Shown here piece after piece: positions 1,937 to 42,216 of a stretch of 48,602 nucleotides of DNA. Both the position numbers and the translations under genes were made by a program. Each line of letters opens with the position of its first letter. Positions within the stretch are counted from its first letter, which is position 1. The DNA comes from Gammaproteobacteria bacterium. GTDB lineage: Bacteria > Pseudomonadota > Gammaproteobacteria > SZUA-152. The notes below the pieces were generated by a model, which saw only the letters and a program-made list of their open reading frames with translations, made no database searches and was not told the origin of the DNA. Location: the NCBI GenBank assembly GCA_011321815.1, contig DROS01000042.1:1-48602 (forward strand), in the 5' to 3' direction.

Positions 1937-2371
1937 AGTCCTAGAATCTGCGATAAATGCAAAGCATGCCGCATGTCATCGCGGTTTATTCAGCAGATGG
2001 GTTGTGGTGCAGCCGATAAGAAGGCCGAATAATGTCATACTGCCGGGTTTATCTCCAGGCGGTTGATTACGAAACCCGGATTAATAAAGCTGTTGGTGAA
2101 TTTTGGGTCAGGGTGGGTAGAAATAGCAGGCAGGCCGTTCTTTTCGGGAGGGAAGAACGTCAGCTGCAATGAAAATAATTGTTAAGTCAATGAGTTAACT
2201 GTTTTCTGTTCCGCTAATATTCGAAATACTGGTGCATTGTATGTAGCAAGTACGCGCGCCAATGTGTCGACGCCAGTTATGGTGTGCCATTTTGCCCGGA
2301 GTTTTGTAATGTGTTGGGCAAGGGCGGCCGATGACCAAACAAAATCAATAAAAAGGAATTGCTCAAATAGA
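1937..2371. other. Intergenic region upstream of the signalling cluster
   Basis: The region is divergent between the secreted protein and the first c-di-GMP gene, so it should hold promoters for both. I cannot point to a convincing -35/-10 pair. The open frame of the downstream gene extends up to 2237, but that extension has no ribosome site and no conserved sequence. Confidence 0.4.
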
Positions 2372-4435
2372 ATGAAACCTCTGCGCGTTTTATTAGTTGA
2401 AGACTCTGAAGATGATGCGGCGCTGACTTTGCGCCAGCTTAAAAAGGGCGGTTATGCGCCTTCCTTTAAAAGAGTGGATACTCCCGAGACCATGCGCGCA
2501 GCGTTGGAAGTACGTGAGTGGGATATTGTTCTTTCCGATTACAATATGCCGGAATTCAGCGGCCCTGCGGCGCTGGTCTTGTTGCGTTCAACCGGTATTG
2601 ATCTTCCATTTATCGTGATTTCCGGCGCCATGGGTGAAGAGTCCGCAGTCTCTCTAATGAAGGCTGGCGCGCATGACTATATCATGAAGGATAATCTGGC
2701 ACGGCTGATCCCGGCCATTGAGCGCGAATTACGTGAAGCTGAAGTGCGCCGTGCCCGCCAGCGGGCGGAAGCGGATTTGCGTCTGTCAGCCAAGGTTTTT
2801 GAATCCAGTGTGGAAGGGGTGATGATTGCGGACCGGGAGGCCTGCATCCTGCGAGTGAACAAGGCCTTTAGTGAGATCACCGGTTATTCGGAAGCGGAGG
2901 TGATTGGTCAGCGGCCGAATATTTTACAATCGGGGCGGCATGACAAAAATTTTTATCGTGGCATGTGGCAGTCCATTAACGATAATGGTTATTGGCAGGG
3001 TGAGATCTGGAACCGGCGCAAAAATGGAGAAGTGTTTCCAGAATGGCTGACGATCAGTGCGGTGACTGATGTGAATGGGCACGTGACGCATTTGATTGGC
3101 GGCTTTACGGATATGAGCCAGCAAAAACAGGCGGAAGACCGTATTCAGCATCTCATGTATTACGATGCCTTGACGGATTTACCCAACCGGGTTTTGTTTC
3201 GGGAACGGTGCAAACAAGCTATGTCACGTGCGCGGCGCAGTGGCAGGCGCGTGGCTTATTTACACTTTGATATCGACCGGTTCGTGAATATTAATGACAC
3301 ACTAGGCCATCCGGTGGGAGACCAGCTGTTGCAACAGGTTGGGCAGCGCCTGACAGGCTGCGTGCGCCAACAGGATCTGGTAGCGCGCTTTGTGGGGGAT
3401 GAGTTTGGTGTTGGGATAACGGATGTTGATCGCAATGAGCCAGTGGACAGTTTGTTGCAAACAGTGGTTGGCGCATTTTCTGAACCTTTTTACATACAAA
3501 GCAGGGAAATTTTTTTGGTGCCGAGTATTGGAGTGTCGTTTTTTCCGGATGATTCGATGGAGTTTGATGAACTGGCACGTTTTGCGGACACAGCATTGCA
3601 TGCCGCCAAACGTGATGGTGGGGCCAATTATCACCTCTATCAAAAATCCATGAATGCAGATGCAGATGACCGCCTGTCAATGGAAAGTGCATTACGTCGC
3701 GCACTGGAACGTGAGGAATTTCTGCTTTATTACCAGCCACAGTTGTCGCTGAAAACAGGTGACATCATCGGTGTGGAGGCGTTGTTACGCTGGCGTCGCA
3801 GTAACGAGAATCTGGTGTTGCCGGGAAAATTTATACCCCTGTTGGAAGAAACCAGTTTGATTATTCCAGTGGGTGAGTGGGTTTTGCGTCAGGCCTGTCG
3901 GGATCATCAGGCCTGGGCCGAGGCGGGCAACAAACCCATACCAATTGCGGTTAACCTGTCGGCCCGTCAATTCCGGGATAAGGGCTTGGTGGCAATGATT
4001 CGTCAAGTACTTGCAGAAAATGCCATTGCCGCTGAAATGATTGAACTGGAAATTACGGAAAGCTGCGTGATGGAAGATCCCGAAGAGGCATTGTCAACCC
4101 TGGAAGCTTTTCATGAAATGGGTATTCGTATTGCCATTGATGATTTTGGTACCGGCTATTCATCACTGAGTTATTTGAAACGGTTTCCGCTGGACGTGTT
4201 GAAGATTGACCAATCCTTTGTTGCAGATATTCCGGCAGATGAAGATGATGCAGCCATTATTGATACCATTATCGCCATGGGGCACCGGCTTAAACTTTTG
4301 GTAACCGCCGAGGGTGTGGAAACAGAAGCACAAGCTGGCTTTCTGCGTGAACATGGCTGTGATAATGTACAGGGCTATTTTTATGACCAGCCCATGTCCG
4401 CTGAAAATCTGCTTCTCCGGATTTCCAGGGCATAA
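2372..4435 (+). CDS. REC-PAS-GGDEF-EAL cyclic-di-GMP signalling protein
   Basis: A soluble 687-residue response regulator predicted to degrade, and perhaps make, cyclic di-GMP. From the ATG at 2372: receiver domain 1-125 with acidic pocket EDSEDD, probable phospho-acceptor D56 (in SDYNMP) and K106; PAS 139-250; GGDEF 257-420; EAL 433-685. The EAL domain looks active: EALLRW at 469-474, NLSARQF, EITES, DDFGTGYSS, KIDQSF, AEGVE and QGYFY are all present. The GGDEF loop reads VGDEF (341-345), the first Gly being Val, but an I-site RxxD lies five residues before it. The start is chosen because AAGGAA lies about 13 bases upstream and the receiver begins there; the open frame extends 45 codons further up without conservation. 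The kinase gene follows after 10 bases. Confidence 0.9.
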   Translation: MKPLRVLLVEDSEDDAALTLRQLKKGGYAPSFKRVDTPETMRAALEVREWDIVLSDYNMPEFSGPAALVLLRSTGIDLPFIVISGAMGEESAVSLMKAGAHDYIMKDNLARLIPAIERELREAEVRRARQRAEADLRLSAKVFESSVEGVMIADREACILRVNKAFSEITGYSEAEVIGQRPNILQSGRHDKNFYRGMWQSINDNGYWQGEIWNRRKNGEVFPEWLTISAVTDVNGHVTHLIGGFTDMSQQKQAEDRIQHLMYYDALTDLPNRVLFRERCKQAMSRARRSGRRVAYLHFDIDRFVNINDTLGHPVGDQLLQQVGQRLTGCVRQQDLVARFVGDEFGVGITDVDRNEPVDSLLQTVVGAFSEPFYIQSREIFLVPSIGVSFFPDDSMEFDELARFADTALHAAKRDGGANYHLYQKSMNADADDRLSMESALRRALEREEFLLYYQPQLSLKTGDIIGVEALLRWRRSNENLVLPGKFIPLLEETSLIIPVGEWVLRQACRDHQAWAEAGNKPIPIAVNLSARQFRDKGLVAMIRQVLAENAIAAEMIELEITESCVMEDPEEALSTLEAFHEMGIRIAIDDFGTGYSSLSYLKRFPLDVLKIDQSFVADIPADEDDAAIIDTIIAMGHRLKLLVTAEGVETEAQAGFLREHGCDNVQGYFYDQPMSAENLLLRISRA

Positions 4436-4445
4436 GTTGCAAAAA

Positions 4446-5972
4446 ATGAACTGGGGATTGTACACGCGGGTTATTGTCAGTCTTGGATTTATTCTGTGCA
4501 TTTCAATGTTGTTATTAGGTTACGTGTTGTTGCATGGCGTTGATAAAACAGAAAGAATGGAGAGCATTGCTCTGACGCTTGGTGGCATATGGTTATTGGT
4601 GATGATGGCCATTCACCTGGTTTTACGCAGCACGATAAAACCTTTGTCTGCGCTCACCAAGCATATTACAACTACATCGTTTGAAATGCCCCACCGGGAA
4701 ATCAGTGTGGATTTGCGCGCCAGGAAAGATGAAGTTGGTATATTGGCCTGTGCATTTGATGCCATGTTATCGAACCTTCAGAAATCTTATTCCAATCTGG
4801 AAAAAAGAGAGGAGCACTATCGGCGGCTGGTGGAAACAGCAAATGTTATTCCCTGGGAACTGGATTTAAACTCACGACGTATAACTTATGTCGGGCCGCA
4901 AGCGAAGGCTATGCTTGGTTATGAAATCAGTGATTGGTACGAAGAAAAATTTTGGTTGAATCATGTATATGCAGAAGATGTTGACATGGCCGAAAAGTTT
5001 TATCGCCATGTTGCCTCCACTGATGAAGGTTGTGAAATTGAGTATCGGATAAATCATGCTGATGGAAAAGTGGTATGGGTGCGCGACTGTGTGCATAAAT
5101 CCACTTATGATCCACGCTCACCCACATTACAAGGGCTGATGTTTGATGTCGACGAAAGAGTCAAGGCCCGTCAGGAATTGCAGCGTTATCGTGAACATTT
5201 GGAAAATGTGGTTAACGAACGCACGGCTGAGTTATTAACCGTTAATCAGGAGCTGCAATCATTTGCGCATTCCCTGTCCCAGGATTTGCGCGTGCCGTTA
5301 CGTGTCATTAATGGATTTAGTGAGGCCATGCTGGAAGATTATGGTGATGTTGTCGGAGATGAGGGACGGAGTTATTTAAAAAGAATTTGTGGCGGCACAA
5401 AAAAAATGGGCAAGATGATCGATGATATTTTGATTCTTTCCCGGGTTACCCGCAAAGAATTGTACCGGAAAAAGATCAACCTTTCCCAAATGGCGGCTGG
5501 TGTGGTGGAGGGCCTCCGGGAAGAATATATTGATCATCAGGTAGAGTTTATTGTTGATAAGCAATTAACCGCCTATGGTGACGCAGAATTAATAGAAATA
5601 TTATTGAACCATCTTTTGAGCAATGCATGGAAATTTACACAAAAAGTGGAGCACCCACGTGTTGAATTTAGTGGTGAGCTGTCCGCAGGAAATATGGTTT
5701 ATGCGGTAAGGGATAATGGTGCCGGGTTTGATATGCAGTACGTTGAAAAATTATTCTTACCTTTCAGGCGATTGCACAGCTCTGAGGAATTTGAGGGCGT
5801 GGGTGTCGGCCTGGCGGCGGTAAAGCGTATTGTGTTGCGGCATGGTGGAAAAACCTGGGGAGAGGGAAAGGTTGACGGCGGCGCTGTATTTTATTTTACG
5901 TTGGGAGAATCTTCACGAGAGCAATCGAGTTCCGGTAAAAAGTTTTTGCTGGATAATGATATCGCTGTGTGA
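4446..5972 (+). CDS. Membrane HAMP-PAS sensor histidine kinase lacking the phospho-acceptor His
   Basis: A 508-residue inner-membrane sensor. Two membrane segments lie at about 7-27 and 36-55 with almost no periplasmic loop. A HAMP-like linker (RSTIKPLSALTKHI) follows, then a PAS domain of the PAS_3 type (about 120-240), a coiled linker, a HisKA-type helix pair (265-335) and a HATPase_c domain (380-490) with N-box SNAWKF, G1 box DNGAGF and G2-like GVGVGLA. The H-box reads SQDLRVPL instead of S-H-D-L-R-x-P-L: codon CAG at 5280-5282 encodes Gln279. Known kinases of this type autophosphorylate on that His, so this protein probably cannot, though it may still bind ATP or act as a phosphatase or scaffold. 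It sits 10 bases after the EAL gene. Confidence 0.85.
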   Translation: MNWGLYTRVIVSLGFILCISMLLLGYVLLHGVDKTERMESIALTLGGIWLLVMMAIHLVLRSTIKPLSALTKHITTTSFEMPHREISVDLRARKDEVGILACAFDAMLSNLQKSYSNLEKREEHYRRLVETANVIPWELDLNSRRITYVGPQAKAMLGYEISDWYEEKFWLNHVYAEDVDMAEKFYRHVASTDEGCEIEYRINHADGKVVWVRDCVHKSTYDPRSPTLQGLMFDVDERVKARQELQRYREHLENVVNERTAELLTVNQELQSFAHSLSQDLRVPLRVINGFSEAMLEDYGDVVGDEGRSYLKRICGGTKKMGKMIDDILILSRVTRKELYRKKINLSQMAAGVVEGLREEYIDHQVEFIVDKQLTAYGDAELIEILLNHLLSNAWKFTQKVEHPRVEFSGELSAGNMVYAVRDNGAGFDMQYVEKLFLPFRRLHSSEEFEGVGVGLAAVKRIVLRHGGKTWGEGKVDGGAVFYFTLGESSREQSSSGKKFLLDNDIAV

Positions 5973-6415
5973 ATGGTATGAGCTAAATGCACAAATAAAC
6001 CCATAGGCCGGGTGTCTATGATATCAGATGGCAAGTGAGGTTAATTGGCATTACTTTTTTGTATTGTCAGATGTTGTTTGGGAAGTCACTGCATGCACGT
6101 TTCCAGAGCGCATAAGCATAAAAAGTGGATTGCTCGCAGGGTTACGGTATGCTGTGTACAGCATTAACCCGGTATCTTGTTTTATGCGACGGGAACAGCC
6201 TTTGAATACCGAGTTATAACGTTGTATTAATTGGATATATTAGAAAAACCGTTATTTCAATATAGCGGTTGTGGTTTTATCGGGTATGTACAGAGTTTAA
6301 TGTTTGCTCACCAATGTGTAGCTGGAAAATAACTCTGTATCGACTAGATTAAAGGGAGAGCTTTTGCTTCGTGGGCAGGAATGACAACGAAAGCAAAAGG
6401 TAAAAGGGGAAATGG
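5973..6415. other. Intergenic region between the kinase and response regulator genes
   Basis: About 440 bases with no credible gene; a 63-codon frame at 6028-6219 lacks a ribosome site and any recognisable sequence. The hairpin at 6247-6270 is listed separately. The length suggests that the downstream regulator pair has its own promoter. Confidence 0.5.
6247..6270 (+). terminator. Possible terminator hairpin downstream of the kinase gene
   Basis: AACCGTTAT (6247-6255) pairs with ATAGCGGTT (6262-6270) over nine base pairs including one G-T, with a six-base loop. It is followed by GTGGTTTTAT, an imperfect T tract. It could end the transcript from the kinase gene. Confidence 0.4.
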
Positions 6416-6865
6416 ATGTCGGACAAAGTTATTTTATTGGTTGAAGATAACCCGGATGATGAGGCCCTGACTCTACGGGCTTTAAAAAAAAATAATATTC
6501 TTAACAAAGTGGTTGTGGCGCGTGACGGCGAAGAAGCGCTGGAATATCTGTTTGGTACTGGAAGATATGCAGGGCGTGATACCAGCATTCAGCCCCAGGT
6601 TGTTTTGCTGGATTTGCAATTACCAAAAATCAGTGGGCTTGAAGTGCTTAAACGTTTGCGGGCAGATAAACGCACAATGTTGCAGCCGGTGGTGATTCTT
6701 ACCACGTCCAGTGAAGAGATGGATGTTGTTGCGAGCTATGAAAACGGAGCCAATAGTTACACCCGGAAGCCGGTGGATTTTAATCAATTCATTGAGGCAG
6801 TGAAGCAGCTTGGTTTGTATTGGCTGGTATTGAATGAAGCACCCGTAAAGCGTGGGGAAAATTGA
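6416..6865 (+). CDS. Single-domain CheY-like response regulator (Rcp type)
   Basis: A 149-residue stand-alone receiver of the kind often paired with phytochrome-like kinases. Acidic residues are in VEDNPDD (9-15), the phospho-acceptor is probably D66 in LLDLQLP, T96/T97 is in ILTTSS, and the conserved Lys is K118 in TRKPVDF. There is no output domain, so it should work by protein contact or in a phosphorelay. The start follows a purine-rich AAAAGGGGAA. Its stop codon is two bases from the ATG of the REC-GGDEF-EAL gene, so the two are co-transcribed and probably translationally coupled. Confidence 0.92.
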   Translation: MSDKVILLVEDNPDDEALTLRALKKNNILNKVVVARDGEEALEYLFGTGRYAGRDTSIQPQVVLLDLQLPKISGLEVLKRLRADKRTMLQPVVILTTSSEEMDVVASYENGANSYTRKPVDFNQFIEAVKQLGLYWLVLNEAPVKRGEN

Positions 6866-6867
6866 GC

Positions 6868-8580
6868 ATGACTGTATCGCTACGAGTTCTCCTGGTCGAA
6901 GATTCTGAAAATGATGCCATGCTGCTTAAGAGAGAGCTACAGCGTGCGCAATACGAGCCAGTTGTGTTGCGGGTTGATAATGGCCCGTCAATGCAGCGTG
7001 CTTTGCAAAACCAAAATTGGGATATCGTTGTCACTGATCATAATATTCCCGGTTTTAGTTCCGAGGAAGCGATTGCCATCGCACTGGAATGTAAACCTGA
7101 TATTCCTATCATTATAGTTTCGGGCAGTATTGGTGAAGACATTGCAGTGGCTGCAATGAAAATGGGCGCGCACGATTATATTATGAAGGACAACCTTAAG
7201 CGCCTTGTGCCTGCCATTGAACGGGAATTGCGCGAAGCGGAAATGCGACGCTCCCATCGACTTGCAGAAGCAACGATCCATCATCTGGCTTATCACGACC
7301 AATTGACTGGCCTGGTGAATCGTAATGAGTTTGACCGGCATCTCAACAATGCCCTGGACTCCGCCAAGTGTGACAATATTTCGCACGTATTGTTGTATCT
7401 GGATCTGGACCAATTCAAAGTGATTAATGATACCTGTGGACATCAGGCCGGGGATGAATTGTTAAGTCAGCTGGCATTATTGTTGCGGGAAGAGGTGCGG
7501 GGTAATGATATTCTGGCCCGCCTGGGTGGTGATGAGTTTGGCCTGTTGTTGGAAAACTGCCCATTGGATAAGGCAAAAGTGATTGCCGAAGACCTGCGGG
7601 AACTGGTCAGTGATTTTCGTTTTGTCTGGCGTGATAAAAGCTTCAGCATTGGTGTCAGTATCGGTATGGCCAGAATCACCAAAGATGCGCAAGGTGCCGA
7701 CGAGGTGTTGGGCGCCGCCGACATAGCCTGCTACGCGGCAAAAGACATGGGGCGTGACCGGGTACATGTGTATAAGGACGATGATTCGGAACTGCTGCGG
7801 CGGCAAACTGAAATGCAATGGGTCTCCCGTATAAAAGATGCGCTGGAAGATGGCCGGTTTGTATTACACCAGCAGCAGATGCATTCGCTCAGTCGCCTTA
7901 ACGGCAGGGTCCAGTGCGCTGAATTTTTGGTGCGCATGCTGGATGAACAGGACAACATTATCATGCCCGGTGCATTTATTCCTGCGGCAGAGCGTTACGG
8001 CATCATGTCCTTGCTGGACCGTTGGGTGGTTCGCTCCACTATCGCCTATTTAGCTGACAATTTATCGGCAAGTGAAAAAAATGACAGTACATTTTTCGTT
8101 AATCTTTCGGGTAGCTCGCTCGGTGATAGTGATTTTTCGACCTATATCCGGCAACAAATCACACACTACAATATCCCACCCGAGCTGTTATGTTTTGAAA
8201 TTACTGAAACGGCAGCTATATCGAACTTGAGCGAGGCGGTTAAATTTATTAATGAAATACGCAGCTTTGGTTGCCAGTTTGCGTTGGATGATTTTGGTTC
8301 TGGTCTGAGTTCCTTTTCTTATCTTAAAACACTGCCTGTGGACTATTTGAAAATAGATGGTTCATTTGTGCGCGATATTGAAGTGGATCCAATGAATTTT
8401 GCAATTGTGCAGGCGATCAATGAAATTGGCCACGTTGCCGGTTTGCACACCATTGCGGAATTTGTTGAAAATGAAAAAACACTGGAAAGCCTGCGTGGTA
8501 TTGGTGTTGATTTTGTACAGGGTTATTGCATTGCTCATCCAAAGGCAGTGCGCGAAAAAATGCCTGTTAGTGCTTCCTGA
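6868..8580 (+). CDS. REC-GGDEF-EAL cyclic-di-GMP signalling protein
   Basis: A soluble 570-residue response regulator with both cyclic-di-GMP domains. The receiver is 1-125 with D57 (TDHNIP) and the segment HDYIMKDNLKRL nearly identical to that of the protein at 2372-4435. GGDEF (about 135-300) has an intact GGDEF at 220-224 and an I-site RGND five residues before it, so it is probably an active, product-inhibited cyclase. EAL (about 320-565) has the Glu of ExLxR (AEFLVRM, 352-354), FVNLSG, EITETA, DDFGSG, KIDGSF, AEFVE and QGY, so phosphodiesterase activity is also possible. ATG 6868 is preferred to TTG 6862, because GGGGA lies about 10 bases before it and it clears the preceding stop. Confidence 0.92.
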   Translation: MTVSLRVLLVEDSENDAMLLKRELQRAQYEPVVLRVDNGPSMQRALQNQNWDIVVTDHNIPGFSSEEAIAIALECKPDIPIIIVSGSIGEDIAVAAMKMGAHDYIMKDNLKRLVPAIERELREAEMRRSHRLAEATIHHLAYHDQLTGLVNRNEFDRHLNNALDSAKCDNISHVLLYLDLDQFKVINDTCGHQAGDELLSQLALLLREEVRGNDILARLGGDEFGLLLENCPLDKAKVIAEDLRELVSDFRFVWRDKSFSIGVSIGMARITKDAQGADEVLGAADIACYAAKDMGRDRVHVYKDDDSELLRRQTEMQWVSRIKDALEDGRFVLHQQQMHSLSRLNGRVQCAEFLVRMLDEQDNIIMPGAFIPAAERYGIMSLLDRWVVRSTIAYLADNLSASEKNDSTFFVNLSGSSLGDSDFSTYIRQQITHYNIPPELLCFEITETAAISNLSEAVKFINEIRSFGCQFALDDFGSGLSSFSYLKTLPVDYLKIDGSFVRDIEVDPMNFAIVQAINEIGHVAGLHTIAEFVENEKTLESLRGIGVDFVQGYCIAHPKAVREKMPVSAS

Positions 8581-8624: not shown

Positions 8625-9419
8625 TTAACCGATTAATTCAGGTTTATGCCCCAGCTGGCTGGCTGGCCGGGCCGGCACAGCAAGGCGTGGGGTCGGCACT
8701 TTTTTGTTGCCCGGGGTGAACTGACGCAACAGGTTGTTCGCAATGCCATTCAGATCGGTCGCAATTTCCCCGTCTTCCATTTCGGCAGTCTTTTTGCTGT
8801 CAGCATGGTCGTTGCCATGTAATAAATAACCACTGCATTCCAGTTTTAATGAAAGCAGGGATTGTGTGTTGTTATATAAAAAACTGAAAAACCGCCGGGC
8901 TACCGGTTTGGTTTTTGCGCCGAGCATGATGACGCAAATGGTAAAGTCAGTATTGAGGGAGGCTATAAATGCCAGCTGATCATAGGCAATGCGTACGCCA
9001 TTCAATGATGCCTGCACCGTGATGAGCAAGCGATTGTTTTTCAGTGCTAATGTGGTTGATGGTGACAATACCGGAATCAAACAGTATGCAGGCAGACTGA
9101 TTTCATCATCGTCCTTATGCGCGGTTAATGTGGGTGTTACATTGTTTGCCAGTACCGACAAATGATTGGAAACCGCCAGACGGTTTTCAATATTTAACAC
9201 CATACTGCTGCTTTGGCTATTAAAGGCATGATTCAATTCATACACAATGTAATCATCATTTCTTGCACCCAGCAATACGGGGATAATGGTGGTATTTTCC
9301 CAGATTGGCAGGCGCTCGTTTCCATCGCTGAGAAAATAATGACTGATTTGGGCAAGGCGGTGTTTTGAGAATGTGCTGCTGTTCTCAGCATGCGCGTTAT
9401 TATGGGTTGTTTTTGACAT
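8625..9419 (-). CDS. Third gene of the ParA-CBM48 operon; possible P-loop-less MinD/ParA relative
   Basis: A 264-residue protein that I do not recognise with confidence. The ATG at 9417-9419 lies inside the end of the ParA gene (20-base overlap), so the two are translationally coupled. There is no Walker A motif, signal peptide or membrane segment. By eye, the stretch LLITVQASLNGVRIAYDQLAFI with the following FTICVIMLGAKTKPVARRFF resembles the region after Walker B in FlhG/MinD-type ATPases, where TPEPTSITDAY and a following Asn motif normally sit. This is a weak visual match. The C-terminal 40 residues are Pro/Arg-rich and probably disordered. A regulatory or partner subunit of the preceding ATPase is an inference from the operon. 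Confidence 0.6.
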   Translation of the reverse strand: MSKTTHNNAHAENSSTFSKHRLAQISHYFLSDGNERLPIWENTTIIPVLLGARNDDYIVYELNHAFNSQSSSMVLNIENRLAVSNHLSVLANNVTPTLTAHKDDDEISLPAYCLIPVLSPSTTLALKNNRLLITVQASLNGVRIAYDQLAFIASLNTDFTICVIMLGAKTKPVARRFFSFLYNNTQSLLSLKLECSGYLLHGNDHADSKKTAEMEDGEIATDLNGIANNLLRQFTPGNKKVPTPRLAVPARPASQLGHKPELIG

Positions 9420-10656
9420 GGCGCAGATCCATTGTGTGATTGCTTGATGGGTTCGTCGGTGGTACCAAGGCTTGTATCGTATATTTATCACCTACACGCA
9501 GCATGGAATTATGTACACCCAATGGGCTCAGTACCTGGTCCGGGTTAGTGGGGTCGCTCCGCCATTTTCCATCAATAATCAGGCGGTACTGGTATTCTCC
9601 CGCAGGCGCAAAAAATATTTTATGTATGGTGTTGTTTTCCTGAACAGTTTCAACATCCTTATCCGGCACCCAGTCATTAAAATCACCGGCCAGTTTTAGG
9701 TTGAGGGTCATATAATTTTTATAAGTGAGTTCAACCCGGTGTAGCTTGCCGATACCGTTATTTTTTTCGGGATACGCCGTTTGCAGGCCGCTTTTTTGGG
9801 TGCTGGCAGTTACCGCAGGTGCAGTAAGTGTAGGTGATTGTTCAATGGCGTCAATGCGACTACTCAGCCAGGGCGTTTCAGCCGGTACGGCGGGTTTTTC
9901 GTTTGTGGAGCGGCGAATGATTTCATTGGCCAACTCCTGATAGTCTTTGCTGGCGATGGATTTTTTATCAAATTGGATAATGGACTGACCCGCACACACG
10001 GCTTCCTTGAGCCGTACTGTGCTGTGAATCAGGGAGGGCAATACGTTTTCCCCATATTGCTCCCAGATACCCAGCAAAAATTTTCGGCAGAGACGGGTGC
10101 GCTTGTCGACCAATGTCGGCAGTATATTGATTTCGATATCGAGCCCGTATTTTTGTGCAACCAAATCCACTGTATCGCCAAGACGCTCGATGCCATCAAT
10201 GGCAAACAGGCTCATGTCGATGGGAACGATTACCCGGTTTGCAGCGCGTATGGCGTTAATGGACAGCAGGCTGAGTGATGGCGGACAGTCAATAATCACA
10301 AAGTCATAAATGGACTCCACAGCTTGCAAATGGTCAGCAAGTTGTCGTTCACGTTTGGGCATGTCCGCAAGTACGTGCTCAATTGCCGCTAATGAAATGG
10401 TCGCGGGTACCAAATCGACCCCTGCGGTGACGTTCATGATGATGGCTTCCACCAGAGGAAAATCCAGGGCAAACACCTCATACAGCCCGGGCTCATCCTG
10501 CTTGCGCTGTCCCAGCCCCAGGGATGCGTGACCCTGGGGGTCGGTATCCACCAGCAGGGTGCGCAGGCCTTTTTCACCCAGGCCTGCCGCCAGATTAATC
10601 GCCGTTGTTGTTTTGCCGCAGCCACCCTTTTGGTTTGCAATCGCCACAATATTCAT
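9400..10656 (-). CDS. ParA-family ATPase fused to a C-terminal CBM48/AMPK-type glycogen-binding domain
   Basis: A 418-residue cytoplasmic ATPase. Residues 1-245 are a ParA/MinD-family domain: deviant Walker A KGGCGKTT (10-17), Walker A' LLVDTDPQG, Walker B FVIIDCPPS. A Pro/Thr/Ala-rich linker follows (about 250-303). Residues 305-389 match a CBM48 (AMPK beta-type) carbohydrate-binding module: LAGDFNDWVP, an aromatic GEYQYRLIIDGKW, DPTNP and the closing NSMLRV. ParA ATPases form dynamic gradients that position DNA or large cargoes; CBM48 binds alpha-glucans. A glycogen- or polysaccharide-positioning role is my inference. ATG 10656 is preferred because the ATPase fold begins there and AGGA lies upstream; the open frame runs 102 codons further but is covered by the small HTH gene, whose stop overlaps as ATGA. 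Confidence 0.88.
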   Translation of the reverse strand: MNIVAIANQKGGCGKTTTAINLAAGLGEKGLRTLLVDTDPQGHASLGLGQRKQDEPGLYEVFALDFPLVEAIIMNVTAGVDLVPATISLAAIEHVLADMPKRERQLADHLQAVESIYDFVIIDCPPSLSLLSINAIRAANRVIVPIDMSLFAIDGIERLGDTVDLVAQKYGLDIEINILPTLVDKRTRLCRKFLLGIWEQYGENVLPSLIHSTVRLKEAVCAGQSIIQFDKKSIASKDYQELANEIIRRSTNEKPAVPAETPWLSSRIDAIEQSPTLTAPAVTASTQKSGLQTAYPEKNNGIGKLHRVELTYKNYMTLNLKLAGDFNDWVPDKDVETVQENNTIHKIFFAPAGEYQYRLIIDGKWRSDPTNPDQVLSPLGVHNSMLRVGDKYTIQALVPPTNPSSNHTMDLRHVKNNP

Positions 10657-10841
10657 AAAATATCCTGATTTAGTGGGGTACCGCCGGTGTATTGTTGACT
10701 TTTTTGCGGAAAGTCCATCAGGAGTGTGATGTTTTTGTGAATGCGCTGCACTGGGCCGGTTTTTCGCCAATAACTGAGTTGGCGCTGGTTGAGCCCGGTG
10801 ATGCATAGCACCTGCTGACAGGTATGACCTGTTTTGTTCAT
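10653..10841 (-). CDS. Mini MerR-like helix-turn-helix protein
   Basis: A 62-residue protein whose first 30 residues (CQQVLCITGLNQRQLSYWRK) resemble the helix-turn-helix start of MerR-type regulators, where the pattern is I/V-x-x-I-T-G-x-S-x-R-x-L-x-Y-W. The usual wing (Gly/Arg-rich, then a Tyr) is not evident after KTGPV, so it is either a minimal version or a truncated or frameshifted descendant of a longer regulator. Its TGA overlaps the ParA ATG as ATGA at 10653-10656, which strongly supports translation. It is the first gene of the operon and a likely autoregulator. Confidence 0.65.
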   Translation of the reverse strand: MNKTGHTCQQVLCITGLNQRQLSYWRKTGPVQRIHKNITLLMDFPQKSQQYTGGTPLNQDIL

Positions 10842-11659: not shown

Positions 11660-13036
11660 ATGACCTCAACCCGTACGGAAGACATTCTGAAGTCAGCTTA
11701 CGCATTGCTCGACAATGCCGTGCTGTCGTACAAGGGCGAACCGACGGGTACCGCCGCCGCACTGGATGACCGTGTCGCTGCACCGAATTACGAAGAATGT
11801 TTTGTGCGTGATTTTGTGCCCAGTGCGCTGGTGTTTTTATGCGATGGCAAGCCTGAGATCGTGCGCAACTTCCTGAAGATGGTGGTCAGCCTGCGTCACC
11901 AACAGTCGGTTATGGAGGGTCACGAACGTGCATTGGGCCTGATGCCGGCCAGTTTCCGCGTGCCAGGCGAGCAGGACAAAGACGGCAAACCCACCGCTGA
12001 CTTTGGCGAGCTGGCCATTGGCCGGGTGGCACCGGTAGACTCGGCGATGTGGTGGGTGATCCTGTTGCGTAGCTATGTGTTGGTAACCGGTGATATTGCA
12101 TTGGCCCACAGTGAGGAATTCCAGGAAAGCATGCGCTTTACCCTGGACCTGTATCTGAAAGAAAGCTTTGAAACTTCGCCCGCTATGCTGGTGCCGGACG
12201 CCTCGTTTATGATTGACCGGCGCATGGGGGTGTATGGCCATCCGCTGGAAATTCAGGCGTTACTGTATGGCATGTTAAGTACCGCGCAGGAATTATTATT
12301 ACCCACACCGGAAAATCAACGTCTGTTGTCTAACAGCAAAAAGCGCATGCAAACCCTGCGTTCTTATGTGCGCATCTATTATTGGCTGGATTCTCAACGC
12401 CTGAATGAAATTCACCGCTTTCGATCAGAAGAATTCGGTGAAGATGCCGCCAACCATCTGAACATTTATCCCGAAACCATCCCGCCCTGGATGGATGGCT
12501 GGTTGCCGCATAATAGTGGTTATCTGGTGGGAAATCTGGGCGTGGGACGTATGGATTTTCGACTGTTTTCATTTGGCAACCTGTTGGCGATTATGTTTGG
12601 CCTGACCACCGACAGGCAGGCTGAAAAAATCATGAACCTGTATGATGCACGCTGGAATGAGCTGGTGGGTGAAATGCCGTTAAAAATTGTCTATCCAGCA
12701 CTGGATGGCGATAAGTGGCGTTACACCACTGGCAGTGACCCCAAAAATGTACCCTGGTCATACCACAACGGCGGCAGCTGGCCGTGTCTGATCTGGGCGT
12801 TTGTGGGTGCCGCCGTGCGCACCGGGCGCCATGATCTTGCGCGGAAAGTCATGGCGCTTTCCATGGAAAAATTGTGCCATGACCAGTGGCCGGAATATTA
12901 CGACGGAAAGAACGGCAGCCTGATTGGGCGGCGCTCCAATCTAAAGCAAACCTGGTCAGCCAGTGCAGTGATCCTGGGGCATCAATTCCTGGAAGAGCCC
13001 GACGCCCTGGCGGTGTTCGAGTCCATTAATTTTTAA
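11660..13036 (+). CDS. GH100 alkaline/neutral invertase
   Basis: A cytoplasmic 458-residue enzyme predicted to hydrolyse sucrose to glucose and fructose. It matches GH100 over its whole length: NYEECFVRDFVPSALVFL near the N terminus, the MIDRRMGVYGHPLEIQ block (about 175-195) with the catalytic Asp described for cyanobacterial InvA, the region IPPWMDGWLP with HNSGYLVGNLG, and a C-terminal WPEYYDG with QTWSASA holding the second acidic catalytic residue. There is no signal peptide. The ATG at 11660 has only a weak GGGA upstream. It is followed 18 bases later by the HDOD gene, so the two may be co-transcribed. It lies opposite the glycogen-binding ParA operon, which may reflect shared carbohydrate biology but is not proof. 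Confidence 0.9.
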   Translation: MTSTRTEDILKSAYALLDNAVLSYKGEPTGTAAALDDRVAAPNYEECFVRDFVPSALVFLCDGKPEIVRNFLKMVVSLRHQQSVMEGHERALGLMPASFRVPGEQDKDGKPTADFGELAIGRVAPVDSAMWWVILLRSYVLVTGDIALAHSEEFQESMRFTLDLYLKESFETSPAMLVPDASFMIDRRMGVYGHPLEIQALLYGMLSTAQELLLPTPENQRLLSNSKKRMQTLRSYVRIYYWLDSQRLNEIHRFRSEEFGEDAANHLNIYPETIPPWMDGWLPHNSGYLVGNLGVGRMDFRLFSFGNLLAIMFGLTTDRQAEKIMNLYDARWNELVGEMPLKIVYPALDGDKWRYTTGSDPKNVPWSYHNGGSWPCLIWAFVGAAVRTGRHDLARKVMALSMEKLCHDQWPEYYDGKNGSLIGRRSNLKQTWSASAVILGHQFLEEPDALAVFESINF

Positions 13037-19256: not shown

Positions 19257-23629
<4,373 letters not shown>

Positions 23630-23637
23630 CAGGAGCC

Positions 23638-24939
23638 TCATGGTCTTGTTATCGGTTGCGCAATACGCACGCCGGTTAATCGTTCAATTTCAATAATGTT
23701 GCGTTGGGCGTTAACACTGGCCTCAATTAATGCGTTATGTGCATCCAGTAATTCAGCTTGAACACTGCGCCATTCCAGATAACTGTATCGCCCAAGGTTG
23801 TATGCGCGGCGGGTTTCGGTGAGTGCTTTCTCAAGCGGGGGAATAATGTCATTGCGCACGGCGTTGATCACGTGCATATCATGTTGCAGTTTTTCATAAA
23901 GGACAGAGAGGATCGTTTCAGCACGAATGCGTGTTGCCGTTTCGGCCAGGTGTGTTTCAGCCAGATTGGCCCGTGCTTCCGCAATGCGCCCCGGGTTACG
24001 GGTACGTTGACCAAAGGGAATGGAGATGCCGGCAATCAATGCCTGACTGTTGTTATTGCTGTCTTCCTGGGTATGACGCATTCCAGCATTGACACGCCAG
24101 CTTGGTTTGTCCCGGGCCAGCGCCAGTTGCAATTCCGCTTTTTTTAAACGTCGGTTTGACAGCAGCCGGATGAATTCCGGATTCTGTTGCAGTTGTGACT
24201 TGAGGGTTCCGAACGATGCCAGCTGGGGCAGGCTGGTGATGTCACCGGCAACACGTGAAAACGTCAGCTCGGTTTCCCCCCACTGGGCGGCTAACCGGCG
24301 GTTAGCGGATACCCGTTCGTGATCAATGTGTTCACGCTCCAGTTTTCTGCGAGCCAGTTCAGCCTGTGCTCTGAACAGCTCGGCTTCGGGTGCCTTGCCT
24401 GCCCTCACGCGCTTTTGTACCGCTGCAATGGTTGCTTTTGCAAGCTGCACGGTTTTATCCGCGTTCACCCTGCGCGCTTGGAATGCCAGACTGACAAGAT
24501 AGCGGCGTGCTGTTTCAGCCGCAGCGTCGAGCTGTTTGATGCCGGCCTCAACAGAGAACAGGGAGAGTCCTGCTCGTGCAGTGTCGACATAACGTTGGCG
24601 GAGTCCCCGCTCAAGTATCCAGCTGATACTGATGGTTGCCTGGGCGTTGTCAAAACCCTTGTGATTACCCGTGCCCAAGGCATCTTCCAACAGGACATTC
24701 AACTCGGGACTGGGCGCCAGCCCGGCTTGTTGTACTCTCCCGTCTTGCGCCTTGAGCCGGTAATCGAAAGCCCGTAAATCCGGGTTGCCTGTGATTGTTT
24801 TGGTTACGGCTTCCCGCAGACTGATTGTACGCTTGTCAGACTCCGGGTCAGATGTTGCGTTTGCACCTGCGCTGAAAAACACGAAACAGGATACAACGGT
24901 TACTGTTGCAATCACATGATGGTTTATTTGTCTTGGCAT
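23638..24939 (-). CDS. CzcC-type outer-membrane efflux channel
   Basis: A TolC-family outer-membrane protein of 433 residues, forming the exit duct of the metal efflux complex. A signal peptide covers about 1-28 (ending SAGANA). Two outer-membrane efflux repeats follow, with LREAVTKTITGNPDLRAFDY and long Ala/Glu/Arg-rich helices, and the second repeat ends LGRYSYLEWRSVQAELLDA. There are only 8 or fewer bases between this gene and the adaptor gene. The start is ATG 24939 with a weak ribosome site. The upstream gap to the His-rich gene is 186 bases. Confidence 0.9.
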   Translation of the reverse strand: MPRQINHHVIATVTVVSCFVFFSAGANATSDPESDKRTISLREAVTKTITGNPDLRAFDYRLKAQDGRVQQAGLAPSPELNVLLEDALGTGNHKGFDNAQATISISWILERGLRQRYVDTARAGLSLFSVEAGIKQLDAAAETARRYLVSLAFQARRVNADKTVQLAKATIAAVQKRVRAGKAPEAELFRAQAELARRKLEREHIDHERVSANRRLAAQWGETELTFSRVAGDITSLPQLASFGTLKSQLQQNPEFIRLLSNRRLKKAELQLALARDKPSWRVNAGMRHTQEDSNNNSQALIAGISIPFGQRTRNPGRIAEARANLAETHLAETATRIRAETILSVLYEKLQHDMHVINAVRNDIIPPLEKALTETRRAYNLGRYSYLEWRSVQAELLDAHNALIEASVNAQRNIIEIERLTGVRIAQPITRP

Positions 24940-36075: not shown

Positions 36076-37542
36076 ATGTTTTTTACCGACAACCGCACAC
36101 ACTTTTTCCGTCCCTTTTTCGGTAAATACCGGGAACAGGTGGTGGAGTGTCTGCGTATTCTGCATGCCCGCCTTTATGGCTCACTGGCTGATTACAAGCG
36201 GGCCTTTACCCGCGATCAGGTGCTGGAGTCCTTCACCGAAGCCATTACCCGCACCCCTGTGCTGGACGAGGAGGAAGACGATTTTTCAGCACCGGTACGC
36301 AGCGAGCGGGAGCAGGCCAACTGGATTCTCAACCTGCTGCTGGAGCACGGCTGGGTCGAACGCCATGCCGATGAGGCCACTCTGCAAAGCAGTTACGCTT
36401 TCAGTCGTGTGGGCCGTTTGTTTACCCAGCCCATGGTGGAAACGGCCGGTGGTGGCTTCCGTACCCGGCATCGCAATACCCGCAACACACGCAATGCCTT
36501 GCAATCCTTTCTTGAGCGTGGGGAGGTGTATGACCTGCTGGACGCCTACGAATATTCAGAACGCATTATCAGTGATTTCAGCGATGTGATCGCCGAGCTG
36601 GATGAGCGCAAGCGCATGCTGGTACGGGAAGTAGAGGCCCGGCAGGTTATCCAGCAGGCCAGTGACGAATTTTTTGATTTCATGGAAAAGCGTTTCATGC
36701 CGGATCTTTCCGTGCGCCTGTCGGCGGACAGTGTGGAAAAATACCGCGATGAAATCCAGTCGCTGCTGCGCAAAGCCAAGCGCAAGCAGAAAAAATTCAA
36801 AACCGGTGCCGAAATCGAGTTACGCAAACTGGCCCCGGAGTTGTTACAGGACAAACAGGCTTCGTTGTATTACCACATTCTCGACAGTATCGAATCACGC
36901 ATTCACAGTGCCAGCGACATCATGTTGCCCGCATTGCGCAATGCCTTGCACAGTTTTACCCGGCGTGCCGACATTATTATTCGCCAGCTCAGTTATACGC
37001 TGGGTGGCGAGCAGGGTGATCTGCTCAACCTGTGCCAGCAACTGGGCCCGCTGCCGAAAGAAAAACAACAACAGGCACTTGATGCGGTGGCCAATGCCAT
37101 GACCGTGCTTGATCTTGGTGTGATTGACCCCAGTGCGCTGCGGCTGCATGCCGGACGACAACGGCGACGGGTCAACAGCGCTGCCGAAGCGCATGCCCCC
37201 ATGGACAAAGCCTCGCGCCGCGAGTTGTTTATCCAGCAGTCACTGCAAAAAGCCTTTGTGGTCAACAATCAGCAAGTGAGGCAGTTTATTATTGCCGCAC
37301 TTAAAAATGGCCATCGAATTCACAGTAACCAGTTACCGATACAAAATGCCCGTGACCTGTTAATGGCCGCCCATGCCATCGAAGCCGGAGCCGCCGGACG
37401 CCGATCCAGCGAATTTTCTTTTCGCGTAGAGCCCACCGGCCAACGGGCACAAACCGATTATTATCAAATGACCGATGACTTCATCATCGAACTGGTCGAT
37501 CATTCCCCGGAACCTGCTTTGGAAAAAAGTCATGTTGACTGA
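36076..37542 (+). CDS. jetA: Wadjet JetA (MksF-like kleisin)
   Basis: The kleisin subunit of the Wadjet SMC complex, which recognises and destroys circular plasmids. The 488-residue protein begins FFTDNRTHFFRPFFGKYREQVVECL, typical of JetA/MksF. It is mainly helical: a winged-helix-like N-terminal part, a helical neck (about 175-260, EVEARQVIQQASDEFFDFMEKRF with basic coiled helix KAKRKQKKFK) and a C-terminal part that should bind the SMC head. Length fits the family. It is first of four genes in the JetABCD order, and jetB starts inside its last codons. The Wadjet subtype cannot be fixed by eye. Confidence 0.85.
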   Translation: MFFTDNRTHFFRPFFGKYREQVVECLRILHARLYGSLADYKRAFTRDQVLESFTEAITRTPVLDEEEDDFSAPVRSEREQANWILNLLLEHGWVERHADEATLQSSYAFSRVGRLFTQPMVETAGGGFRTRHRNTRNTRNALQSFLERGEVYDLLDAYEYSERIISDFSDVIAELDERKRMLVREVEARQVIQQASDEFFDFMEKRFMPDLSVRLSADSVEKYRDEIQSLLRKAKRKQKKFKTGAEIELRKLAPELLQDKQASLYYHILDSIESRIHSASDIMLPALRNALHSFTRRADIIIRQLSYTLGGEQGDLLNLCQQLGPLPKEKQQQALDAVANAMTVLDLGVIDPSALRLHAGRQRRRVNSAAEAHAPMDKASRRELFIQQSLQKAFVVNNQQVRQFIIAALKNGHRIHSNQLPIQNARDLLMAAHAIEAGAAGRRSSEFSFRVEPTGQRAQTDYYQMTDDFIIELVDHSPEPALEKSHVD

Positions 37543-38215
37543 CGCACTGAGCCAACGGCTCGAAAAAGAAAACCTGAGCCTCGATGAATTCCGCGAGCTG
37601 ACTATCCGCCTGCTCAACCACGGTGTGTTATGCCGGGATGAAAGCCAGACCGAGCAACAGCTCTACGACCGCTACCTGCGCATTGCCGATCTGGTGCAAG
37701 ATTACCTGCATATTATGGATATCAGCGTATTTCACGACCGGCGTTTTGAATATCTGCGCCTTTATCCACCGGGCAGTGAAACACCCGGCATGGAAGAAAC
37801 GGATACCTCAGCCTTTGCAGGCAGCCTGCGCAACCGGTTGTCCCAGTCGGAAGTGGCCATGGTGCTGGTGTTGCGCCTGCAATATGACAAAGCGTTACGC
37901 GAAGGGCAGGTGGATGACAAAGGCTATGTTACAGAGTCCGTCGAAGCACTGAGTATCGCCATGAAAAACATCCTCGCGCGCAGCCTGCCGGAAAAACTCA
38001 CTGAGCGAAAACAGTTATTCATTCATTTGCGTCGCCTGCGCCTCATCGAGTTTCGCAGCGAAGAAGAACTGCTCAATGGCGAAGCCTGGTTGAAGATTCA
38101 TCCCATGATCGTCAGCTTCGTCAACGATGACGCCGTACAGGCACTGGCCTCAGCAACCACATCGGAAAATACGGATAACAAAGCCACCGCCACTGAGGCC
38201 GGATTGCCGGGATAA
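37532..38215 (+). CDS. jetB: Wadjet JetB (MksE-like, DUF4194)
   Basis: The KITE-type winged-helix subunit that binds the kleisin in the Wadjet complex. From ATG 37532 the protein has 227 residues and shows the family blocks LSLDEFRELTIRLLNHGVL, YLRIADLVQDYLHIMD, RFEYLRLYPPG and RNRLSQSEVAMVLVLRLQYDKALREG, all typical of MksE/DUF4194. The start is chosen because GGAAAAAAG lies just upstream and conservation begins there; a longer frame opens at 37475. It overlaps jetA by 11 bases. Confidence 0.88.
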   Translation: MLTDALSQRLEKENLSLDEFRELTIRLLNHGVLCRDESQTEQQLYDRYLRIADLVQDYLHIMDISVFHDRRFEYLRLYPPGSETPGMEETDTSAFAGSLRNRLSQSEVAMVLVLRLQYDKALREGQVDDKGYVTESVEALSIAMKNILARSLPEKLTERKQLFIHLRRLRLIEFRSEEELLNGEAWLKIHPMIVSFVNDDAVQALASATTSENTDNKATATEAGLPG

Positions 38216-38254
38216 AAATGCGCCAGTCAAAAACCGGAAAAACCAACGCAACGT

Positions 38255-38319
38255 TCACGAAGACGCAGAGCGCGCAAAGAAAAACAGTACAAGCTTTGCG
38301 TCTCTGCGCTCTTTGCGTT
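38255..38319. repeat. Long palindromic repeat between jetB and jetC
   Basis: The arm ACGAAGACGCAGAGCGCGC with AAAG mirrors CTTTGCGTCTCTGCGC followed by TCTTTGCGTT, across a loop holding AACAGTACAAG. It is closely related to the copy at 35795-35857, including the loop. It lies in the 166-base gap within the defence locus. Confidence 0.85.
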
Positions 38320-38381
38320 TATAACACTCAGCTTGATAGTGTTACAAACGTCTAAAAAAACAGGCAGAGAGTCAAGTATTT

Positions 38382-41300
38382 ATGTTCCTGAAAAAATTTA
38401 TCTTTGTAAACTGGGGCAACATCCCCCAGCTTGAATTTGAACTGGGCCCCATTAACTTGTTATCAGGCGGTAACGGTTCAGGTAAAACCACAGCGGCAGA
38501 TGCCATCCAGACCATCATGACCGCAGCCCACGAAAACCTCTTTCAATACAACCCAGGGCAGGACGAAACCACCCAGCGTGGCCGTGGCGGCAAACGGGTA
38601 CGCACCCTGGCGTCCTACGTATTGGGCTGTGACGACGGCAGTTACGCACGACTCGATCCCAGCGACGGTTATCTTGCCGCCGTGTTTTGTCCCACCAAAG
38701 GTGAAACGGCAGAATCGTTCACTGCCGTCATCGGCGTGCGCGCCTGGCTGGATGCCACCGGTGGGCAACAGATAGCACGGCAGGATGATTTATTGTTTCT
38801 GATCCTGCCCGGTGAAGCGCTGACACTGGCCCATTTTGTCCGCGATGACGGCAACACAAAATACACCACACCGCTGGATAAAATCCAAAACCTGTTAATC
38901 CGTGAATTCGGCCAACGTCACGTACAAAAATACGACACCAAAAAAACCTACCTGCGCCGTCTCTACGCCGCCCTGCGAGGCCAGAACGACAGCGTTTCCG
39001 AAACCGAAGCCACAGCCGCCGCGCGCGCCTTTTCCCGCTTCATGGCCTACAAGCCAGTGCGCAGCATCAATGATTTTGTGGCCCATGAAATCCTTGAAAG
39101 AAAGGATCTCGGCGAAGCGATCCGCTCCATTTCCGGCCAGCTTAAAACCATTCACGCCATGGAGCGTGACGCCGCCCAGTTGGTGGAATCCATCGACATT
39201 CTGGAACGCGCCGAGCAACAGGCCAGCCACTACATCCAGCAATGGATCGAACTGAATAGCCTCGACTTTACCCTCGCACAATATGACTACCTGCAACGCC
39301 AGCGCGATTACATCAAAACCAAGAAACAGCAAAGCGATTACCAGCGCAGCCTGAAAGAAAACGAAGCCGAAACAGAACTGACCGAACAACGACAAAAACA
39401 ACTGAACGAACAACTGGTGCACCTGGAAGCCCAACGCCTGGGTATTAGCGCCTTACAACAGAAAGACGAACTGGAACAACAGCGCAAACAGCAACAAAAC
39501 AAACTCACAGACATGGCGCGTCGCCTGCTGGAACAGGACAACTCACTGGACACCAACCTGCAAGCCAGCAAGTCCATCGTAAAAGATTTACAACGCGCCG
39601 ATTTAATGGACGAGTTGCCAGTGATCGCGGACTTACAGATTCGCCAGCTTGCACAAAATGTCGTAAAGGAAGGCGGGCGGGGTGAGCTGGATATTCCAGC
39701 GCTGTTACAAAAAGATCTGCTGAATGACCTGTCACCACTGGAACTGCATCTGGATCAGGCCCGCGCCGCTCAGCGGCTGCACAACCAGTGGCATGAGCAA
39801 TGGCACCAGTCCGACAGCCTGTCAGACCATGCCTCACTGTATGAACAACTGGCAAAGCTGGCGCATAACCGGGGAGCACGTTACGAAAAGCTGAAAAACC
39901 AATGCCGGCAAAAAGAACAAGACATCGAGCGCCTGCAAGCGAAACAAGTCAGCTATCCACCTTTTGTAGAACGCGCCCTCGCAGCGATACGTCGGGACTG
40001 TCCGCAAGCCGACCCACGAGTGTTGTGTGATCACGTAGAAATCAGCGACTCGCGCTGGCAAATGGCCATCGAAGGTTATCTGGGCATGGCGCGTTTTTCC
40101 ATCATCGTCGATGGCAAACACGAAGCTGAAGCGATACGCATTGTGCGCCAGTTACCGGGGCGCGATAACCGCGCGCGTATCATTCAAGGCGACAAAGCGC
40201 AACGGGATGCCGAATGCTCCAGTCTGCCGGCAGACTCCATTATTCATTTGTTATCCTTCAGTCATGCCACCGCCAAACATTACCTCACCGCCAGTTATGG
40301 CAACGTCGTGCAAGTGGCTTCCACGGATGCGTTACGTCAAACCCGCCGGGGCCTCACCACCGACGGCATGGGTGCCGGTGGTTACAGCATGTTTCGCTGT
40401 GACCTGCCAGAAGGCGAACTGGTGTTTGGCGTAGCCGCACGGGAAAGAGCCCTGAAAGCCAAACAGGAAGAACTGGCCAGCCTCAACGAGCAATGGCAAC
40501 AAGCCAACGACCAGATGCAACAAGTCAACAGCATGCTCGATAACGTTAAAAAACTTCGACCACTGGACTATGCCGACGCCATCACCCACATGCTGGAAAT
40601 ACACCGTGAATTGCAAAAACTGGAAAACCTGCTGGCACAACTGGACTTGTCCGAACACAAAGACCTGGAAAACAAACTGACCGAACTTCGCCAACAGGAA
40701 CAACAACTGCGTCAACAACAAGGCGGCCTGAAAGAAGGCAAAGGCGAACTACAGGAAAAACTGCGCAAGATCGGCAAACGATGCGAAACACTGGCCGACG
40801 AACAGGAAAAAACCCAACAGATAGCAGAAAGCTGCGAACAAAACCTGCTGGCCATCGTCAGTGAATGGCCTGAACTCGATGCCGACGCCCGCCTGGCCGC
40901 AGGAGAAAAAGAAGCCAGCAACATGCGTACCGACGCAGTTGAAACCGCCATCAACTATCGGCAGGAAATCAAACGCAACCTGCATACTCTGGAACGCAAA
41001 ATGGACGAAGCAATCCAGAAACATAACCAGCATTGTTTGCCCGGTGACGCCATTGTCTATCACAGCTTCAAAGGCGACTACGACGCCGCCCTGTTTCGTG
41101 CCATTTGTGGGCTGCAACGCGACCTTGACCGGGTTTTCAATCGCCTGAAAAACAACATACTGGTGGATAAATACGACAACCTGCGACAACTCAAAGACAG
41201 CTTCAATAACGCCTTTGTGACTCACTTTTGTCATACCATTCACCAAGCCATCAACGACGGAAAGCGTCAGATAGAACGGCTCAACAAAGAGCTACAGCAT

Positions 41301-42038: not shown

Positions 42039-42060
42039 TGGCGGTTTGAATAAGTTGAGT

Positions 42061-42146
42061 GTTGTTAACGCAGAGGCCGCAGAGGCGCAGAGTACGCAAA
42101 GAAAAACATTTAAAAAGGTTTTCTCTGCGACCTCTGCGTTAACAAC
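42061..42146. repeat. Long palindromic repeat between jetC and jetD
   Basis: The arm GTTGTTAACGCAGAGGCCGC and onward mirrors the 3' arm TTCTCTGCGACCTCTGCGTT ending in AACAAC. The left arm has an extra GCGCAGAG unit. The family resemblance to the copies at 35795 and 38255 is clear (GCAGAG/GCAAAG units), but the loop differs. Confidence 0.85.
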
Positions 42147-42216
42147 ACGGTAATTAAAAAAACCAACATTCTCTCCGCAGCCTACTAAAAAACTGTTGAA
42201 ATAGAGATCACGCGCA

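Follow-up and report, generated by a model that had tools for sequence, protein, structure and literature searches.

The window, a stretch of 48,602 nucleotides from a gammaproteobacterial genome, carries on its reverse strand a gene in which a Soj-type ParA ATPase is joined to a glucan-binding module (CBM). It is overlapped at its end by a gene for a putative partner and at its start by the remainder of a MerR-family gene (Table 1). In the surroundings, a gene for a GH100 neutral/alkaline invertase (11660-13036, forward strand) is located divergently to the ParA-CBM gene; it was rejected as a functional neighbour, since outside the window its position is shared by the nearest relative (L002) alone, and there within a syntenic block, so that this conservation is not independent evidence. 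A row of four genes convergent with the partner gene (2237-8580, forward strand) encodes two response-regulator GGDEF-EAL proteins, a histidine kinase, and a response regulator. Furthermore, we identified an RND efflux operon (19257-24939, reverse strand) consisting of an AcrB-family pump, a membrane-fusion protein, and an outer-membrane channel, and a Wadjet-like anti-plasmid defence locus (36076-43353, forward strand) with JetA (PF18982), an SbcC/Rad50-like SMC protein, and further genes around them.

Table 1. Positions of the ParA-CBM gene, its neighbours and their parts in the window
Feature	Position	Strand	Details
ParA-CBM fusion gene	9400..10656	-	418 aa; ATG at 10656, stop at 9400-9402
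Soj-type ParA ATPase domain (aa 1-250)	9907..10656	-	Pfam AAA_31, Soj/ParA structure matches
Disordered linker (aa 253-304), fast-changing	9745..9900	-	pLDDT, identity to nearest relative
AMPK-beta/CBM48-type glucan-binding module (aa 305-389)	9490..9744	-	PF16561, AMPK beta-1 match, model
Partner gene	8625..9419	-	264 aa; start codon 20 nt within the ParA-CBM gene
Putative ATPase-docking peptide RLAQISHYFLS (partner N-terminus, aa 21-31)	9327..9359	-	cross-phylum motif
Partner body (aa 44-239), FlhG/FleN/MinD-like fold without P-loop	8703..9290	-	profile and fold comparison
MerR-family remnant	10653..10841	-	62 aa; weak MerR_1 (E=0.057); TGA overlaps the ParA-CBM ATG (ATGA)

The initial annotation, made from the letters alone, had described a complete ParA domain followed by a disordered linker and an AMPK-beta/CBM48-like module. 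Pfam family AAA_31 was detected in residues 1-174 (E=1.3e-51), and the coordinates and strand proved to be exact, with every quoted motif of both ATPase and module being found. The domain harbors the deviant Walker A motif KGGCGKTT with the signature Lys10 and a Walker B aspartate (D123), and R186 and R215 occupy the positions of the Soj DNA-binding arginines (matched by motif at the sequence level). A structure search with the whole model returned a result list filled by ParA structures; the best solved structures were Soj/ParA (Z 38.6 to 35), the Soj fold being reached with Z 38.6 and 1.4 A over 250 residues at 40% identity to Soj.

For the C-terminal module, a profile search without CBM48 similarity had been named beforehand as a refuting outcome, but the search was positive: AMPK1_CBM (PF16561) matched residues 319-390 with E=3.6e-7, its 30.7 bits exceeding the cut-off of 26.8. 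When searched separately, the C-terminal 118 aa matched the crystal constructs of the AMPK beta-1 CBM (E=1.7e-8), with W329, R358, W365, and N383 of the fusion aligning with W100, K126, W133, and N150, the ligand-contact residues of AMPK beta-1. In an AlphaFold model based on an alignment of 34 sequences, most of the CBM revealed a pLDDT of 92-97 and was predicted to be all-beta, eight strands being placed between 305 and 388; values below 50 were found at 274-301 and 393-418. The linker, predicted to be disordered, changes fast: it is only 29% identical to the nearest relative, compared to 82% for the ParA domain and 74% for the CBM. No PF16561 protein besides ParA-CBM was found by profile search in the window's genome (3.58 Mb).

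A scan of 84,980 species genomes, of which the best 80 loci were analysed, recovered the fusion sought across genomes in at least six phyla, with ParA and CBM in identical order in 78 of the 80. It was found in Gammaproteobacteria, Nitrospirota, Omnitrophota, Myxococcota, Desulfobacterota, Planctomycetota, and a few others. Since the order is the same in 78 of these best homologous loci, and in view of the Pfam and AMPK matches, a chance or mis-called fusion was ruled out. The contig of locus L044 bears an archaeal label, which is doubtful because its ParA-CBM groups with Desulfobacterota; it is likely mis-binned or recently transferred. In the alignment of the 80 sequences from these loci, NQKGGCGKTT, D37, and D123 were invariant, including each of K10, G11, G12, C13, G14, K15, and T16; R186 was present in 97%, and position 215 was mostly R or K. 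As to the glucan-binding aromatic residues, whose loss would have spoken against the initial annotation, the equivalents of W100 and W133 were present in every CBM-bearing sequence of the best 80 loci. The K126 equivalent was R, K, or Q (Q in eight sequences of the Omnitrophota group), and the N150 equivalent was N, or D in about half of the Omnitrophota group.

Two gammaproteobacterial loci (L016 and L019) possess a KGGCGK-type ParA with MerR and no CBM. An ATPase-domain tree places both within the gammaproteobacterial fusion group, so that the CBM was apparently lost secondarily. A link of this loss to a loss of GlgA was discarded, as the two loci disagree and one of the two genomes keeps GlgA. 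Conversely, the complete genome G073 (L106, 4370-4919) has lost the ATPase part and retains a frame with the CBM alone, located between MerR and partner. AMPK1_CBM matches without ParA were also seen at L108/L109, in genome G049 between glgC and a phosphorylase gene and in genome G184 in a small protein adjoining a phosphorylase-like gene.

Other identities were considered for the ATPase. An ordinary chromosomal ParA was ruled out, since a separate soj-parB pair is located elsewhere in the genome (contig C69). BcsQ was rejected with 79.1 bits against the cut-off of 157.85 bits of NCBIfam TIGR03371. A plasmid origin was likewise dismissed: the CBM had no match among 72,556 plasmids, and the fusion-bearing genomes G075 and G112 of the class sample are single contigs.

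The initial annotation had assigned the two coupled neighbours as regulator and partner, of which the partner stood and the regulator did not. With only 62 aa left, the window's regulator is a remnant, in contrast to the intact MerR of 150-170 aa in relatives, including the nearest one; compared to these copies, its DNA-binding start is retained and most of the remainder is deleted. A MerR gene lies upstream of the fusion in at least 12 loci. The partner, in which a Pfam search detected no family and in particular no ParB domain, carries an N-terminal peptide that it has in common with its counterparts in most non-Omnitrophota loci among the best 80 ([K/R]LG[R/K]GLxxISHxFLS). Elsewhere the peptide reads KLGRGLEDVSYLFLS, KLGKGLGDISHLFLS, SLGRGLDEISDIFLS, RGISSIAHHFLS, or RDLADVLHYFLPE, compared to RLAQISHYFLS in the window, and it is common to counterparts whose bodies differ greatly across phyla. 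It resembles the N-terminus of the ParB of the same genome, KKRGLGRGLDALLGG, and partners of A/D ATPases were reported to act via such N-termini (PMC10241942, PMC12462528).

A pattern for this peptide matched 32 loci directly after ParA-CBM, compared to 4 of 880 other ORF starts. As this pattern had been drawn up with the peptides already in view, we trained a 17-residue profile on sequences from Gammaproteobacteria and Nitrospirota alone and ran it on 3,223 ORFs from the other phyla. Its top five matches, and 11 of the top 13, were ORFs directly downstream of ParA-CBM, with the motif 33-84 nt past the ParA-CBM stop. Both the architecture and the pairing of ATPase and partner are well supported. 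The partner body was found to be similar to FleN by comparison with PDB sequences (profile E=3.7e-15) and to FlhG by fold comparison (E=1.3e-9), and a Walker A motif (P-loop) is absent from the window's partner. Such an FlhG/FleN-like body without P-loop characterizes the gammaproteobacterial partners; a direct profile comparison of the partner with ParA-CBM gave weak similarity. In many loci, a family of about 200 aa follows the partner (L106, 5610-6206, and counterparts); it is apparently fused to the partner in L005 and absent from the window.

In Omnitrophota, the gene just upstream of ParA-CBM encodes a single-pass membrane protein whose N-terminal tail (EIYeHLAxiYL) is conserved; this protein is the likely candidate for the partner in this group. 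By eye, the tail resembles the partner peptide. Since the N-terminus of this protein was outside the 40 best matches of the trained 17-residue profile, its reading as a partner peptide is a lead only. A conserved block in the Omnitrophota loci L022-L076 comprises an alginate-export-type porin, a GH57 gene, the single-pass membrane protein, ParA-CBM, a small membrane protein, and a Lys-rich protein whose C-terminal domain looks EF-Tu-like by eye. A GH57 gene was found two or three genes upstream of ParA-CBM in at least 14 Omnitrophota loci. Its product is 33-35% identical to the GH57 of the glycogen cluster in the window's genome and begins directly at the catalytic domain, with no signal peptide recognized by eye.

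That cluster (glgA-glgB-glgC-GH57-malQ) belongs to the window's own genome, and glgB was found beside the fusion system in L044 and L077; no glycogen genes were present in the operon in the window or in the other gammaproteobacterial loci read. With the presence of GlgA called at E<=1e-50, 56 of the 80 genomes with the best fusion loci possessed it. The 24 without it belonged in 21 cases to Myxococcota and Planctomycetota, and outside these two phyla 56 of 59 fusion-locus genomes were positive. In the sample of 275 genomes from the window's class, GlgA was found in all ten genomes with an intact fusion compared to 150 of 275 overall, a comparison made with no correction for phylogeny. All Planctomycetota fusion genomes (11/11) encoded a GT35 phosphorylase and most of them GH57. 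In six of ten Myxococcota fusion assemblies, GlgA, GT3, GT35, GH13, and GH57 were all absent at the thresholds used, although their CBM tryptophans are intact. This gap weighs most heavily against a strict glycogen role, but less so as the assemblies may be incomplete. The CBM likely has an alpha-glucan as its ligand. That glycogen is the physiological ligand, and that granules are positioned instead of glycogen enzymes being controlled, is an inference.

The explanation that we favour, at about even odds, is that ParA-CBM serves as the ATPase in a positioning or partitioning system of ParA type with an intracellular alpha-glucan (glycogen) as its cargo. By analogy to ParA proteins, dimerisation, DNA binding, and stimulation by the peptide would be expected. 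ATP-bound ParA dimers would hold the nucleoid via the conserved basic residues and tether glycogen granules directly via the C-terminal CBM. Using the ParB-like peptide at its N-terminus, the partner would dock on the ATPase and trigger hydrolysis, which would release the tether, so that granules would be dispersed along the nucleoid and divided between the daughters. In Omnitrophota, where a single-pass membrane protein is the likely partner, this release point may lie at the membrane. Counting against such a cycle, the CBM sits on the ATPase of the fusion, whereas in known positioning systems the partner, not the ATPase, binds the cargo; the geometry of ParA-CBM would therefore be unprecedented. 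The absence of glycogen genes from the gammaproteobacterial operons read and the CBM loss in L016 and L019, with GlgA kept in one of these genomes, also speak against it.

The chief rival to positioning is a glucan sensor, in which the CBM would signal to the ATPase whether glycogen is bound, in the manner of AMPK-beta, and the resulting output via partner and MerR would regulate glycogen enzymes or gene expression, with no granule being moved. We regard this as rather unlikely. It would fit the MerR gene upstream in at least 12 loci, the relation of the partner body to FleN, an antiactivator whose binding target is the transcription factor FleQ, and the example of BcsQ, a ParA-like regulator of a polysaccharide synthase (according to PDB titles). 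In the window, however, MerR is decayed and ParA-CBM and its partner are intact. Moreover, R186, R/K215, and the Soj-type fold are retained and the N-terminus of the partner carries the ParB-like peptide; these features suggest spatial cycling over pure regulation.

Distinctly unlikely in our view is a role of the CBM as an adaptor to cell envelope or exopolysaccharide, by which a machine for glucan synthesis or export would be placed at the membrane in a BcsQ-like manner, with no part for storage glycogen. The single-pass membrane protein and the alginate-export-type porin that adjoin the Omnitrophota fusion point in this direction, as do the six Myxococcota assemblies without glycogen enzymes; the GH57 near the fusion, starting at its catalytic domain with no signal peptide seen by eye, the absence of bcs genes from the annotated loci, and the resemblance of the CBM to the alpha-glucan module of AMPK-beta argue against it. 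That the CBM no longer binds sugar and serves as a protein-interaction module on an ordinary chromosome-segregation ParA we hold to be very unlikely: the ParA can exist without CBM (L016/L019), but the ligand tryptophans are invariant across phyla, a soj-parB pair exists separately in the window's genome, and the partner lacks a ParB domain.

No description of a ParA-CBM fusion was found in the open-access literature, in agreement with the initial annotation, which knew of no such system; as the search covered open-access texts only, this is not proof of novelty. As far as we found, novelty lies in the combination of the ATPase and the glucan module, each of them known by itself, in the breadth of this combination, and in the ParB-like partner. 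Tentatively, and with somewhat less than even confidence, we propose a cross-phylum system in which a ParA with its own glycogen-binding module and a partner with a ParB-like peptide would actively position and partition storage polysaccharide, as the first dedicated glycogen segregation machinery. Known cargos of ParA/MinD ATPases are chromosomes, plasmids, carboxysomes, flagella, and chemoreceptors; if the proposal is true, a storage polymer would join them. A machinery that places or partitions the glycogen stores within bacterial cells was not found in the open-access literature searched. In an E. coli csrA mutant, glycogen gathers at the old poles and can exclude the chromosome (PMC4836754), so that a machine spreading glycogen would be of obvious benefit. 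The fusion family itself is broad, conserved, and modular, with CBM, linker, and putative activating peptide.

Compared to ParA-ParB (Soj-Spo0J), the ATPase is of Soj type and the N-terminus of the partner resembles the ParA-binding motif of ParB; in contrast, the fusion adds a C-terminal glucan-binding module, its partner has no ParB/Srx or DNA-binding domain, and the soj-parB pair of the genome is separate. FlhG/FleN is homologous to the partner body at the profile E-value given above, but the window's partner lacks the P-loop and carries an extra N-terminal peptide, and a link to FlhF/FleQ was not seen. BcsQ of cellulose synthesis is also a ParA-fold protein tied to polysaccharide metabolism, whereas the fusion scores far under the BcsQ cut-off, has a CBM, and lies in annotated loci without bcs genes. 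With the CBM48 of the AMPK beta-subunit, the module shares about 70 aligned residues, conserved equivalents of W100, W133, and N150, and R/K at K126; unlike there, it is borne by a ParA ATPase and not a kinase, and the position of AMPK Thr148 varies in the fusion family. Like McdAB and other ParA/MinD systems that position cargo (PMC10241942, PMC6328274), the locus combines an ATPase with an adjacent partner that probably activates it through its N-terminus; unlike in those systems, the ATPase itself carries the cargo-binding module, and the presumed cargo is a polysaccharide.
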